A stretch of DNA of 64,000 nucleotides, from the NCBI GenBank assembly GCA_020073485.1, contig JAIQFB010000001.1, forward strand, positions 186,001 to 250,000. Reading direction: 5' to 3'. Source of the stretch: Terriglobia bacterium. GTDB taxonomy: Bacteria; Acidobacteriota; Terriglobia; Acidiferrales; UBA7541. Below the pieces are notes generated by a model. That model was not told the DNA's origin. It did not search any database and saw only the letters and a program-made list of their open reading frames with translations. This document shows positions 1,752 to 7,190 of this stretch, one piece after another (position 1 is the first letter of the stretch; each line of letters starts with the position of its first letter). The translations under genes were made by a program, and so were the position numbers.

Positions 1752-1825
1752 TGGAGGCGCGGGGCGGGATCGAACCGCCGATAAAGGTTTTGCAGACCTT
1801 TGCCTTACCACTTGGCGACCGCGCC
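1752..1825 (-). tRNA. tRNA-Cys (GCA)
   Basis: Read on the minus strand, the 7-bp acceptor GGCGCGG (1825-1819) pairs with CCGCGCC (1762-1756). The anticodon stem AAGGT/ACCTT encloses the loop CTGCAAA with anticodon GCA. The T-loop GGTTCGATCC is present, and the discriminator is U73, typical of tRNA-Cys. The 3' CCA is encoded (1754-1752). Confidence 0.95.
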
Positions 1826-2037: not shown

Positions 2038-5000
2038 CTACCATAGCAGTTTCAACCCAAATTGAATTTGCCGCGACGTTGTCGTTGTCGAGGTGATGAC
2101 CCCCGCCGTCGGCGATGGTCCCGAAGTTGCCGATGTAAACACGACGGGGTTCGGATTGTTCAGATTTGTGCGATTGAAAATGTTGAAAAACTCGCTGCGG
2201 AACTGCAGGCTCAACCGTTCGGTAAGCAGGAATTTCTTCGCCACGGAAAAATCGGTTTCGGCAAGCCCCGGGCCCACCAGGAAATTGCGCGGCGCATTGC
2301 CATAGGTATTGGGCAGCGGCGCGACGAACGCGTTCGGATTGAAATACCGGCCCGGGCCGCCCAGGATGATAGGCCCGGTGAACGCCGGGTTCAACGACGG
2401 GCGAACCGGATTGCGGCTGTCGCCGTCATTGGCGGGGTTGTAGGAAAGCTGAGGCGTAAACGGCAAACCGGAAAGCAGGGTCTCGATGCCGCTGATTTGC
2501 CAATTGCCAGCCAGCGCATTCACCCAATTGTTTTGCCCGGACGCGCTCTTGCGCCCAAAGGGCAGATCGTACGTCGCGTTGATGACGGCCGCATGGCGGA
2601 TGTCAAACGAAGCGCGGCCGTAGTCCGCCTGTTTGGGATTTAGCGGATTGGAAGCGAACGCGGGCGAGTTGGTCGCCACGCTGGTGTTCATGCTGTCTCC
2701 GTCGTCGAGCGCTTTTGAGAACGTGTAGACACCGCGGAATTGCAGCCCGTGGCTCAAAGTGTGATTCACGTCCACTTCGAGGCCGTTGTAGGAGCTGACG
2801 CCTTCGGAAACCCAATGCGTGGTGTTGGCCACGTTGGGATTGGCCAGCGCGGGAGTTCCGGTGAACGGTGCGGCTGCGCTGGCGAAATAAAAATATGCCC
2901 CGGCGGGATAATTCGACGGGCAGGGCGAAGCCGGGCAGATCGCGACATTGCCCGGCACGTTGGCGTCGATCGAAAGAATTTCGTGGTAGCCGTGCGAGCC
3001 GATGTAGCCGACGCTCAGTATTGTATTCGACAGGATTTGCCGCTCAATTTTGAAATCGTAGGAAAATACCGTGGGCGTCTGCAGATTCGGCTGCACGCCG
3101 CTTGGAATTACTTTTGCCCCCGCGATTGGCGTGACGGGATTCGTCGTGGCGTTGTTCAAAATCGTCGAGACCGCGACGTTTTTCGCGGCGTACACCGCGT
3201 TGAAGGGGCCGTTCTGGTCGAGGCGGTAACTGAGATTGTCGACCAGGGCGTAGTAGACACCCGCGCCCGCGCGAATCACGGTTTTCTTCGCCCCGAACGG
3301 CGACCACGCAATTCCCGCTCTCGGCGCTGGCAGGAATCGCGCGTTGTTCACCGAAAATGCGGAGTTGCCAATAAGTGTGGGAAACCCCGTGCCGGTTTGC
3401 GACTGGATAACGTTGGTCGTGGGATCAAACGTGTAGTTTGCCGCCCGCCCGTAGGCTTCGTTCCAGCCGTTCGTGAATTCTCCGCGGAAACCGAGGCGCA
3501 GCTCGAAACTGGGCCGCAGCTTGATGGCGTCCTCCACGAAGAAGGCTCCTTCGAGCGAGCGCCAGGACAACGGCGTCGCGGAGGGCGCGTACGTGTAGGT
3601 GCTGATCGTCCCTTGCAGGAAAGTTTGCAGGTTCGTGAACGACGCCTGCGCGTATTGGTCCTGAATCAGGCTGTCGTTCGATTGCAGCCGCTCGAACCAT
3701 GCGCCGAAATTGAGCAGGTGAATGCCGTGCGTGATGCTGACCTGGTCGGTGGCCGTGAAAAGATTCCGGACCGCGTGGAGGTTGCTACCGGCGTTGGTCC
3801 CGCCATTGGTGAGTTGCGACGCGCCGTTCAGCGTTGTGCCGCCGCCGATCACCACGGCGCCCGGAACGGGAGCCAGCGTCGTGTTGAGCCAGGCCGTCGG
3901 CGTGGACAGTGCGGCGCCGGCGACACCGCTATTGAAATAGAACGCCCCGCGGGAGAATCCGAACGTCACCTTATTCAATATGGACGGCGAAAAAAGATGT
4001 GTTTCGCTCAGGCTGGCGACCTGCTCCCGCAGGGCAACATCGACCGTGCTGAACGGATTGATGGTCGGTGAAAGCGATTGGCTGTCATCCACGGTGTAGA
4101 CCCCGGCGAACGAGTCCTTCTCCGAAAAAATCTGATCGAACCGAGCCGTTCCGAAATCCTCGCGGATATTTTGTTGCGGGTTGCTGAAGTTTTCGGCGAT
4201 CCCACTCGGGAGTCCGGTAAATGTCAAAAGCTCCGGGCCGTTTGCGACCGGCCACAAGTTCAGCAAACTGGAGATGCCGCTTGCGAGGCCCACGTTTTTG
4301 AGGGGCGTGGCCGCATTGCAATTGCTGGGCACCGTGCTCAACGCGCTGCACGGCAAGTATCCTGCGCGCGCGCCTCCCGTGGCCGCGCTCGTCGAGCCGT
4401 CGCCGTCCGGCACCAGCGCGACATCGCTGAGGCCAAGCACCTGCCGGAAGCCTTCGTAGTTCCCGAATAGAAATGACTTGTCTCTTTTTATCGGGCCGCT
4501 CAGCGAGCCGCCGAACACGTTGCGCTCAAAATTTGGAATATGCGGCGAGTCAAACGGGTTTCTCGCGTCCAGCACACTGTTGCGCAGAAACTCATACGCA
4601 TTGCCGTGAAGCTGGTTGCCGCCGGAAGCGGTCACGATATTGACTTGCGCGCCGGGGCGCTTGCCGTACTCGGCGCCGAAGGCGTCCTTGATTACGGAAA
4701 ACTCGCGCACCGCGTCCACGCCCAGCAGTTGCCCGCTGGTTCCGCCCGGCGTGTTATTGACTTCCGACGCGCTGGTGAATTCCACGCCGTTGAGAATGTA
4801 GAGATTTTCCTGCGGCCTGCGTCCCGACGCCGAAAACATGTTGCCGACCACGGAATTGGACGTGCCGGTGCCGCCGGAGCGCTGGGAAGTGTAGTTGACG
4901 ATTCCCGGATTGAGCGTGAGCAGCTGGTCGTAGCTGCGCCCGTTGAGCGGCAAGTTTTTCACTTGCGTCTCGCCGACCAGTCCGGAAAATTCCGCGGTGG

Positions 5001-5409
5001 TCACCGCCAGTTCCAGGGCCGTGTCCTCCACGTTGATGGATTGCTGGATTCCCCCCAGCGCCAGCTTGAGGTTCACTTCCGCGCGCTGTCCGATCACGAG
5101 CGTGATACCGGTTCTGGCCTCGGCGCGAAAGCCGTCGCGTTCGGCATCCACTTCGTATGCTCCGACGGCGAGCGCGGGCGCGTCATAGCGCCCGGCGTTG
5201 TCGGTCGAGAGCGTGCGCACCGCCCCGGTCTCCACGTTCTTCACTTTCACCGTCGCGCCGGCGATTACGGCGCCGGTTTCATCGGTCACTGTGCCGTTGA
5301 TCGAAGCGTCTCCCTGCGCCCAAGCCATACCCTGGGGCAGCAAAAACAGAACCAGGTAAAAACTGAGTGTCGCTTTCCATACTCGATTGCCGATATCCCG
5401 CCGGGTCAT
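2038..5409 (-). CDS. Oar-type TonB-dependent receptor with carboxypeptidase-regulatory domain
   Basis: A 1,123-residue predicted outer-membrane protein. It has a signal peptide (residues 1-32, ending MAWAQG), a carboxypeptidase-regulatory-like Ig domain (~35-115, start INGTVTDETGAVIAGATV), a plug-like region (~125-260, NLPLNGRSYDQLL) and a long beta-barrel ending RQIQFGLKLLW with the terminal aromatic residue of outer-membrane barrels. The family is greatly expanded in Acidobacteriota; substrates are mostly unknown. The start at 5409 has an upstream AGGAGAGAG ribosome site. A cysteine-rich leader ORF and an intrinsic terminator lie 70-235 bp upstream on the same strand, suggesting attenuation control and a possible link to sulfur or cysteine supply. 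No partner SusD-like gene is present. Confidence 0.85.
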   Translation of the reverse strand: MTRRDIGNRVWKATLSFYLVLFLLPQGMAWAQGDASINGTVTDETGAVIAGATVKVKNVETGAVRTLSTDNAGRYDAPALAVGAYEVDAERDGFRAEARTGITLVIGQRAEVNLKLALGGIQQSINVEDTALELAVTTAEFSGLVGETQVKNLPLNGRSYDQLLTLNPGIVNYTSQRSGGTGTSNSVVGNMFSASGRRPQENLYILNGVEFTSASEVNNTPGGTSGQLLGVDAVREFSVIKDAFGAEYGKRPGAQVNIVTASGGNQLHGNAYEFLRNSVLDARNPFDSPHIPNFERNVFGGSLSGPIKRDKSFLFGNYEGFRQVLGLSDVALVPDGDGSTSAATGGARAGYLPCSALSTVPSNCNAATPLKNVGLASGISSLLNLWPVANGPELLTFTGLPSGIAENFSNPQQNIREDFGTARFDQIFSEKDSFAGVYTVDDSQSLSPTINPFSTVDVALREQVASLSETHLFSPSILNKVTFGFSRGAFYFNSGVAGAALSTPTAWLNTTLAPVPGAVVIGGGTTLNGASQLTNGGTNAGSNLHAVRNLFTATDQVSITHGIHLLNFGAWFERLQSNDSLIQDQYAQASFTNLQTFLQGTISTYTYAPSATPLSWRSLEGAFFVEDAIKLRPSFELRLGFRGEFTNGWNEAYGRAANYTFDPTTNVIQSQTGTGFPTLIGNSAFSVNNARFLPAPRAGIAWSPFGAKKTVIRAGAGVYYALVDNLSYRLDQNGPFNAVYAAKNVAVSTILNNATTNPVTPIAGAKVIPSGVQPNLQTPTVFSYDFKIERQILSNTILSVGYIGSHGYHEILSIDANVPGNVAICPASPCPSNYPAGAYFYFASAAAPFTGTPALANPNVANTTHWVSEGVSSYNGLEVDVNHTLSHGLQFRGVYTFSKALDDGDSMNTSVATNSPAFASNPLNPKQADYGRASFDIRHAAVINATYDLPFGRKSASGQNNWVNALAGNWQISGIETLLSGLPFTPQLSYNPANDGDSRNPVRPSLNPAFTGPIILGGPGRYFNPNAFVAPLPNTYGNAPRNFLVGPGLAETDFSVAKKFLLTERLSLQFRSEFFNIFNRTNLNNPNPVVFTSATSGPSPTAGVITSTTTTSRQIQFGLKLLW

Positions 5410-5478
5410 TGAATCTCTCTCCTGTGTTGTTTCCGCGCGTTCTCATCGCGCCTTGACTCGAATCCAAAAAATGTTCCC

Positions 5479-5522
5479 AAAAAGAAAAATCCCACCGCCA
5501 GATACGGTCTGGCGGTGGGATT
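5479..5522 (-). terminator. Intrinsic terminator/attenuator upstream of the Oar receptor
   Basis: On the minus strand the arm AATCCCACCGCCAGA (5522-5508), loop CCGTA and arm TCTGGCGGTGGGATT (5502-5488) form a perfect 15-bp stem, followed by the U-tract TTTCTTTTT (to 5479). It lies between the cysteine-rich leader ORF and the receptor start at 5409, the position of a transcription attenuator. Confidence 0.8.
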
Positions 5523-5551
5523 CTAGAATTGCTCGGCTTATGATCCGATTC

Positions 5552-5644
5552 CTAGAAGGTCAGCCTCCCGGCGCCAGAAGACACACACATACAGCAGGAA
5601 CAACACAGACAACCCTGCATGGTCTTCCGGACGTCGCGATTCAT
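5552..5644 (-). CDS. Cysteine-rich 30-codon leader peptide (putative attenuator uORF)
   Basis: A 30-residue ORF with ATG at 5644 and TAG at 5554-5552. Its residues 12-20 read CLCCSCCMC, six cysteines in nine positions. A TTGACA hexamer at 5682-5677 and TACCTT at 5659-5654 are spaced 17 bp, putting the transcript start only a few bases before the ATG, so the message would be near-leaderless. Codons 23-27 contain TCTGGCGCCGGGAGG (5578-5564), which can pair 7+4 bp with the 5' arm of the downstream terminator. This matches leader-peptide attenuation and resembles the leaderless polycysteine uORFs known from mycobacteria. Alternatively it could be a small metal-binding peptide. Confidence 0.6.
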   Translation of the reverse strand: MNRDVRKTMQGCLCCSCCMCVSSGAGRLTF

Positions 5645-5653
5645 AATTTGAAG

Positions 5654-5682
5654 AAGGTACAGGGACAATTTCCGAATGTCAA
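5654..5682 (-). promoter_or_regulatory. Promoter of the cysteine-rich leader ORF
   Basis: A perfect -35 TTGACA (5682-5677), a 17-bp spacer and TACCTT (5659-5654) as -10. The predicted start of transcription is near 5648, four bases from the leader ATG. Confidence 0.55.
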
Positions 5683-5720
5683 CTTTGTTTGGTCTTCGGT
5701 AGTGGGTCAATTTGCTTGGG

Positions 5721-5790
5721 AGGACAGGCACTCTTGCCTGTCCCTTGCAACTCGGCAGGGTCAACGCGGGCAGGCAAGAGTGCCTGTCCT
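5721..5790. repeat. Perfect 20-bp inverted repeat, GACAGGC family
   Basis: AGGACAGGCACTCTTGCCTG (5721-5740) and its exact reverse complement (5771-5790) are separated by 30 bp. Each arm is itself partly palindromic. It lies 8 bp past the histidine-kinase stop and may stabilise or end that transcript. A related element is at 15004-15078. Confidence 0.75.
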
Positions 5791-5798
5791 ACAAAAAA

Positions 5799-7190
5799 CT
5801 ACCCGCCATTCTTGCTTATCGGCAGGCGAACCTGAAACGTCGAGCCTTGCCCGGGAGCGCTCTCCACTTCAATAGTGCCGGCGTGTGCCTCGGCGATCCA
5901 TTTGCCGATGGAAAGCCCGAGGCCCGTGCCGCCAGTCTCCCGGGAGCGGGCTTTATCGGCGCGATAAAAACGCTCAAAGATATTGGGCAGGTCGGCGGCG
6001 GCGACGCCGATTCCGGTGTCGCGGATTTGCCCGATGGCGGTGCCGTTTTGCTCCATGATCGAAACTTCCACCGTTCCTTCGGATGGCGTGTACTTCACCG
6101 CGTTATCAATCAGAATCAGGAACAGCCTGCGAAGCAAATGCTCGTCGCCCTGAACCCACACCGGATGCCCCGGCAAGTTTTCGCGAAAGGATACATGCTT
6201 GCCTTCCGCCAGGGCGCTGCCTTGCGTGTCCACTTCGTGAACGATTTTCGACAGGTCCACGCGCGCAAACGGAATGGATTCCGCACCCGAATCGGTGCGC
6301 GCCAGGAACATCAGCTTCTCGATGAGTTCCGTCGTTCTTTCCAGTTCGGAGTGAATCTGCGCGACGGTATCCCGGTAGTCTTCCACCGAGCGGGCGCGGC
6401 GCAGCGAAAGTTCCGCCCGCGTGCGCATCACCGCCACGGGCGTGCGCAATTCGTGCGAAGCGTCGGCGGTAAACTGCGTGATTTTCTTGAAGGCCGTTTC
6501 CAGGCGCTCCAGCATGCCGTTGAGCGTTTCTGAAAGGCGCTGCAGTTCGTCTCCCGTGCGTGGCACCTCCAGCCGGCTCGACAAATTCTGCACGCTGATA
6601 TTTTTCGCCGTGCGGATAATCTGATCGACGGGATCGAGCGCGTGGCGGCTCATCCAATAACCGCCGAACGCCGCGCACAGCAGGAAAACCGGAATCGACA
6701 CCAGCAGCAATATCCGGATGCGATACAGGGCCGCGTTGTAATCGTCCATTTCGGTGGCCACCTGCACCAGATACGAATGATTTCCGGCGGTGACCACGCG
6801 GTCCAGCACGCGCAGGGGATCGTCTTTATACGGCAGGCCGTAGGCTTTCGCAGCAGGAGATTGCGGCCGCGGAACGTCCAGTTGGCTCATTTGCTCGGAA
6901 CGGTACAGCCAGTGGCCCTGCGCGTCCGACACCTGCAACAACTCGCCGCCAGTGCGCAGGTCGGAATGTTCGCGAAGGCTGTCTTCCAGATTCTCGGTGT
7001 AATCCACGCGGAAAGCGCGCTCGATGAGATGCTGGACGCCTTCGGAACGCGCCTGCAACTCTTCGTCCACGGTGATGTGAATACTCCGGCGCATGGCGAA
7101 ATAGGAGCTCACTCCAAAAAGAGTAAGAGCGAGCGCCAGCATCACCGAATACCAGAACGCCAGCCGGAGCCGCATGGAAATCGTTTTCAT
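5799..7190 (-). CDS. CusS-like sensor histidine kinase
   Basis: A 463-residue inner-membrane kinase with TM1 (~10-32), a periplasmic sensor loop (~33-157), TM2 (~158-180), a HAMP domain (~181-235), HisKA with FTADASHELRTPVAVMRT (His246), and an HATPase with N box DNAVKYTP, DTGIGV and GGTGLGLSIGKW. It overlaps the preceding response regulator by 4 bp (7187-7190), so the two form one transcription unit. The architecture matches the CusS/heavy-metal-type branch, but the sensor loop has no obvious Met/His metal cluster, so the ligand is unknown. Conserved operators near this locus (7898, 9472, 9537) suggest it controls the adjacent YncE-like and Oar genes. Confidence 0.9.
   Translation of the reverse strand: MKTISMRLRLAFWYSVMLALALTLFGVSSYFAMRRSIHITVDEELQARSEGVQHLIERAFRVDYTENLEDSLREHSDLRTGGELLQVSDAQGHWLYRSEQMSQLDVPRPQSPAAKAYGLPYKDDPLRVLDRVVTAGNHSYLVQVATEMDDYNAALYRIRILLLVSIPVFLLCAAFGGYWMSRHALDPVDQIIRTAKNISVQNLSSRLEVPRTGDELQRLSETLNGMLERLETAFKKITQFTADASHELRTPVAVMRTRAELSLRRARSVEDYRDTVAQIHSELERTTELIEKLMFLARTDSGAESIPFARVDLSKIVHEVDTQGSALAEGKHVSFRENLPGHPVWVQGDEHLLRRLFLILIDNAVKYTPSEGTVEVSIMEQNGTAIGQIRDTGIGVAAADLPNIFERFYRADKARSRETGGTGLGLSIGKWIAEAHAGTIEVESAPGQGSTFQVRLPISKNGG

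Follow-up and report, generated by a model that had tools for sequence, protein, structure and literature searches.

The element described here, on the minus strand of a 64,000-nucleotide stretch of Terriglobia bacterium DNA (hereafter the window), is very likely a transcription attenuator of the trp type, in which a ribosome senses the supply of Cys-tRNA, and stands before the gene for an outer-membrane receptor. We put the probability of this reading at roughly 0.86, and no expression, start-site or ribosome data stand behind it. What sequence and comparison establish is a short upstream open reading frame (uORF), its cysteine codons, the RNA arms and the terminator, together with their conservation, their co-variation and the sulfur genes found downstream in relatives. 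Ribosome-mediated attenuation is a classical mechanism, already known as such; what seems to be new is a probable Cys leader-peptide attenuator in the Acidobacteria. No report of a Cys-sensing attenuator in the Acidobacteria was found in the literature searched, most subscription papers being outside the reach of that search. The features of the locus are as follows.

5654 to 5682, minus strand: promoter-like TTGACA-N17-TACCTT, read directly from the sequence (TTGACA at 5682-5677, TACCTT at 5659-5654)
5552 to 5644, minus strand: uORF MNRDVRKTMQGCLCCSCCMCVSSGAGRLTF, inferred to be near-leaderless, 30 codons, ATG at 5644 and TAG at 5552
5623 to 5630, minus strand: arm 1, CCGGAAGA, whose partner is the TCTTCTGG portion of arm 2 (RNAalifold consensus and own-versus-cross pairing test)
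5585 to 5611, minus strand: putative sensor, uORF codons 12-20, with six Cys codons (five TGT, one TGC)
5564 to 5581, minus strand: arm 2, TCTTCTGGCGCCGGGAGG, with arm 1 or arm 3 as alternative partners
5523 to 5555, minus strand: linker hairpin, CTAGGAATCGG..CCGAGCAATTCTAG, which draws arms 2 and 3 close; genus-specific, and present in most of the genus relatives aligned
5508 to 5522, minus strand: arm 3, AATCCCACCGCCAGA, at once the terminator 5' arm and the antiterminator 3' arm
5524-5486, minus strand: intrinsic terminator, 17 pairs, 9 of them G-C, followed by TCTTTTT, between the uORF and the receptor gene
5481 to 5502, minus strand: arm 4, TCTGGCGGTGGG, with the U-tract, the 3' part of the terminator (folding and alignment of relatives)
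2038 to 5409, minus strand: Oar-like outer-membrane receptor with a TonB-dependent-transporter fold, 1123 aa (Pfam CarboxypepD_reg and OMP_b-brl_4)
1752 to 1825, minus strand: tRNA-Cys (GCA), 3' of the receptor gene on the same strand

The 30-aa uORF peptide carries Cys at codons 12, 14, 15, 17, 18 and 20 and ends in SSGAGRLTF. Its Cys run is the sole case of at least six Cys per nine codons in the six frames of the whole 64-kb window, and no Cys stretch of that density appeared in 30 dinucleotide shuffles. The fold of the leader has a z-score of -4.4, and in Rfam release 15 no family reached its gathering threshold for the leader, a match to the rnk leader falling far below its own. The receptor ATG (5409, minus strand) is preceded by its own SD-like CAGGAG. 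An inverted repeat, GGACAGGCACTCTTGCCTGTCC-like and present in dozens of copies in the genome, occupies window positions 5709-5797, between a kinase-like gene and the promoter.

Most of what an initial annotation, made from the sequence alone, had read in this region held when we read the sequence directly, on evidence much stronger than it had: the uORF, the terminator with its U-tract before the receptor (which it gave as 15 bp and we count as 17 pairs), and the competing segment TCTGGCGCCGGGAGG (5578-5564) in the 3' portion of the uORF, which as part of arm 2 pairs with arm 3 through TCTGGCG/CGCCAGA (7 bp) and GGGA/TCCC (4 bp). Its statement that the -10-like hexamer TACCTT ends four bases from the uORF ATG failed, the distance being nine bases; with a start point 6-8 nt past the hexamer the leader would be 1-3 nt long, and its term near-leaderless is still fair, the start site being inferred from promoter spacing. 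It also missed arm 1 (5630-5623), the part that its model lacked. It had supposed that a ribosome finishing at the stop codon would cover part of the segment; such a ribosome masks just the 3' half of arm 2, and arm 1 is needed in the model for that reason. RNAalifold, applied to 26 leaders, returned the terminator and a helix of CCAGAAGA (codons 5-8, 5' of the Cys run) with TCTTCTGG (5581-5574, 3' of the run, the portion of arm 2 that faces arm 1); this helix would supply arm 1 and make the layout trp-like, 1:2:3:4.

The alternative pairing was examined by matching arms within and between leaders. Own arm 2:arm 3 pairs reach -19.0 kcal/mol, against -16.9 kcal/mol when arm 2 is matched with the arms of other leaders (0 of 10,000 permutations), and in a set of 35 representatives (below 70% identity) the own pairing was likewise beaten in 0 of 10,000 permutations. 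The effect is absent in three controls, namely the Cys region, the linker and the 3' flank. For arm 1 with arm 2 the own-pairing z is -5 to -6, but a control on the 5' flank is itself weakly positive (z about -3).

We then asked how widely the leader occurs. A DNA search of the family gave a leader match in 37 of 89 genomes, and nearly all leaders read there have a Cys run and an SSGAGRL-like tail. A second scan, of 84,980 species, used an RNA-only pattern that consists of arms 2 and 3 without the Cys codons and so avoids selecting on cysteine. Its 31 matches all lie in named Acidobacteria or acidobacterial genera, and an in-frame Cys run is present at 30/30 of the sites with readable upstream DNA, where Cys per codon is 0.47 in frame versus 0.08 and 0.10 in the two remaining frames. 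With a covariance model, 113 of 399 genomes belonging to the class gave matches (E 1e-6). In a phylum-wide draw at 1e-5 it matched 15 of 396 genomes, few of them outside the class; a family that spans the phylum is thus not shown by model R1. These covariance-model counts refer to the leader build and not to cysteine alone, some of the weaker matches being leaders for other amino acids.

The initial annotation had named absence of the Cys run and arms from relatives as an outcome that would refute it. Both are conserved across genera, as are the promoter spacing and the terminator, and arms 2 and 3 co-vary. An intrinsic terminator with a U-tract lies between uORF and gene in 60/60 curated leaders. 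The promoter-like pair is mostly 6-9 nt 5' of the start codon (59 leaders) and only 2 of 59 have an SD-like motif; the uORFs are therefore inferred to be leaderless or nearly so, a start site inferred, again, from promoter spacing. The Cys codons of the leaders are 236 TGT to 105 TGC, and those of the downstream genes 25 TGT to 201 TGC; the genes of the window (21 TGT, 100 TGC) also show the opposite of the leader preference. It might be objected that the locus is a product of chance, that is, the terminator of the upstream kinase gene beside a random Cys-rich ORF, since short ORFs are frequent and the kinase-like gene, which shares the strand of the uORF, stops at 5799. However, the promoter sits between the kinase gene and the uORF, none of the 30 shuffles gave such a run, and the conservation across genera, the co-variation and the 30/30 Cys runs refute this reading, which can be all but dismissed.

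The mechanism that we propose is inferred at each of its steps: start site, translation, stalling, termination and response to cysteine. Transcription would begin at or just 5' of the uORF ATG, and the uORF would be translated in a (near-)leaderless manner. When charged tRNA-Cys is scarce, the ribosome would stall on codons 12-18, over or near arm 1; arm 2 could then take arm 3 as its partner, the 3:4 terminator would be blocked and transcription would go on into the receptor gene. With ample cysteine, the ribosome would reach the stop codon, arm 2 would be masked or would return to arm 1, and the 3:4 terminator would form, ending transcription before the receptor. The earlier proposal that stalling frees the segment to block the terminator is supported by the co-variation and by a ribosome-masking model, which folds the RNA before arm 4 is made and places the ribosome by its A site; stalling itself remains inferred. 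In the window model, an A site on codons 8-18 gives a probability of 2:3 pairing of 0.98 (7-bp core), which begins to fall at codon 19, is 0.02 by codon 23 and reaches 0 at the stop. Over 60 leaders modelled, this probability is 0.71 on Cys codons, 0.42 on other codons and 0.00 at the stop. A weakness of the model is that without a ribosome it keeps the 2:3 core paired at 0.72 in the window, so that arm 1 competes only partly at equilibrium. The terminator (-30 kcal/mol) exceeds the antiterminator (-27.5) in stability, and the switch can therefore work only kinetically.

Several known systems bear comparison. With trp-type attenuators the element shares a control-codon uORF, alternative 2:3/3:4 pairing, to which a less certain 1:2 pairing may be added, and an intrinsic terminator before the gene; it differs in its Cys control codons, its (near-)leaderless uORF, its acidobacterial host and the sulfur genes and receptor that it serves. 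The uORFC-8-2 motif is, similarly, a predicted Cys-codon attenuator closed by an intrinsic terminator, with two tandem Cys codons, but is found only before cysS in Rhodobacterales (PMC8632094), whereas the present leaders are acidobacterial and precede a receptor and sulfur genes. The leader peptides of Streptomyces lividans, leaderless as here, include amino-acid attenuators for trp, leu, ilv, met and thr, some with intrinsic terminators (PMC8079986); these are actinobacterial, and no cysteine leader is among those given. In mycobacteria, cysteine-responsive leaderless polycysteine sORFs lie upstream of operons (Canestrari et al. 2020, cited in PMC9094748, PMC9031893). They resemble our leaders in having a leaderless uORF with contiguous Cys codons, as far as the promoter spacing here can be trusted, and this likeness favours a different reading, that slow translation of the uORF sets downstream translation or stability and the terminator is incidental. 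We think this unlikely: a review describes attenuation at the level of translation for the mycobacterial sORFs, whereas the acidobacterial leaders have an intrinsic terminator/antiterminator pair, with a strong terminator and U-tract in all curated leaders; the uORF tail co-varies with the terminator 5' arm; and the receptor has its own SD-like CAGGAG.

The genes behind the leaders point to sulfur. The 60 curated Cys leaders were selected for a Cys-rich uORF and are biased accordingly; a sulfur gene comes next after 55 of them. The next gene encodes a rhodanese-type sulfurtransferase in 19 cases, CysD in 13, a nitrite/sulfite reductase family protein in 13, CysG in 3, TauE in 3, and TusE/DsrC, SsuA, a sulfate-binding protein and CysH in 1 each; an Oar-like receptor follows in 3, a porin in 1, and 1 is unassigned. 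The genome of the window has two more leaders, one before cysD (L116) and one before a nitrite/sulfite reductase (L125). An acidobacterial cysteine attenuator, as the initial annotation inferred, is thus supported, and the receptor held as a client, yet the leader counts show it to be a minority client of a family that mainly serves sulfur assimilation; that receptor expression changes with cysteine remains an inference. As separate observations, a second Cys leader in a genus relative stands before the small, functionally uncharacterised proteins DUF2292 and DUF6152 (L103), and a Cys-rich uORF leader with a terminator precedes a gene whose start resembles Mur ligase, although this is no more than a resemblance (L110).

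The AlphaFold model of the receptor (pTM 0.73) matches the TonB-dependent transporters FusA, YddB, PqqU and PfeA; a sequence search of solved structures gave no match. Among the many Oar paralogues of the genome, the leader precedes only this receptor. Neither receptor homologues at about 55% identity nor other Oar paralogues have a leader, and the leader-receptor link occurs in only three related species. Of the 27 homologues aligned, the leader-bearing receptor has the lowest content of Cys plus Met (0.71%), possibly a hint of sulfur sparing but no more; its tie to the cysteine pathway is inferred.

A tRNA-Cys gene adjoins a leader in 5/6 genus genomes: it lies downstream of the receptor in the window and one genus relative, and three more genomes of the genus have this tRNA-Cys immediately 5' of a leader. 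In another genus, the rhodanese gene is itself followed by a tRNA-Cys at most of the rhodanese leaders. In one locus (L048) leader and tRNA-Cys are kept on either side of a rhodanese gene of which the greater part is absent. A -10-like TAGAAT is conserved 5' of tRNA-Cys in most genomes of the genus looked at, and the tRNA therefore probably has its own promoter here. Co-transcription with the receptor is possible, but we do not claim it. The clustering suggests that sulfur uptake is tied to the very tRNA whose charging would be sensed.

The same build is also found with other sensor codons. Thr-rich uORFs precede aspartokinase (L086, L087, L114, L115, L090, L118 and L197; for example MMTTFTKRITSTKSMSTTSTTTTSTILASGAWRNS), and Val/Ile runs precede acetolactate synthase, ilvB (L135 and L137; MNTITNLSRLTLGIVVVRLVFASRPGGHH). 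Leaders of this build before aspartate-semialdehyde dehydrogenase, asd (L085, L112 and L088), have mixed Thr/Ile/Met/Cys codons. These leaders bear on a third rival, that the Cys-rich nascent peptide senses copper or another metal. In its favour, the CruR/DUF2946 uORF, with its Cys motif, likewise stands ahead of a TonB-dependent transporter gene (PMC9426467), control being only inferred in our case. In that system, unlike here, copper is sensed by the nascent protein, with RAPP arrest and Rho-dependent termination. The C-terminal RAPP arrest motif is absent from the 30-aa uORF peptide, and the terminator is intrinsic, not Rho-type. Moreover, the number and spacing of Cys differ among leaders whereas the RNA arms hold, the Thr and Val/Ile runs fit their own pathways, and sulfur-assimilation genes lie downstream of the Cys runs. 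Metal sensing is thus very improbable, and attenuation by Cys-tRNA supply remains the preferred reading. A bolder one, as likely to fail as to hold, is that a single RNA scaffold (leaderless uORF with an SGAG-like tail, arms 2-4 and terminator) has been reused across the Acidobacteria, its sensor codons (Cys, Thr, Val/Ile) swapped to match the downstream pathway, the Cys version forming a loop that takes in both tRNA-Cys and an outer-membrane receptor.

A 2010 survey linked hardly any of the attenuators predicted for Acidobacteria to a function (PMC2965389). The leader family gives these bacteria a cysteine regulon, regulation being inferred, that can be read from sequence alone. The leader predicts which of a genome's many Oar-like receptors has a role in sulfur nutrition, and the Cys, Thr and Val/Ile leaders amount to a set of sensor-codon exchanges, made by nature, on the same build. 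Across soil Acidobacteria the Cys leader sits before sulfur-assimilation genes, and the gene behind it would probably be on when cysteine is short.
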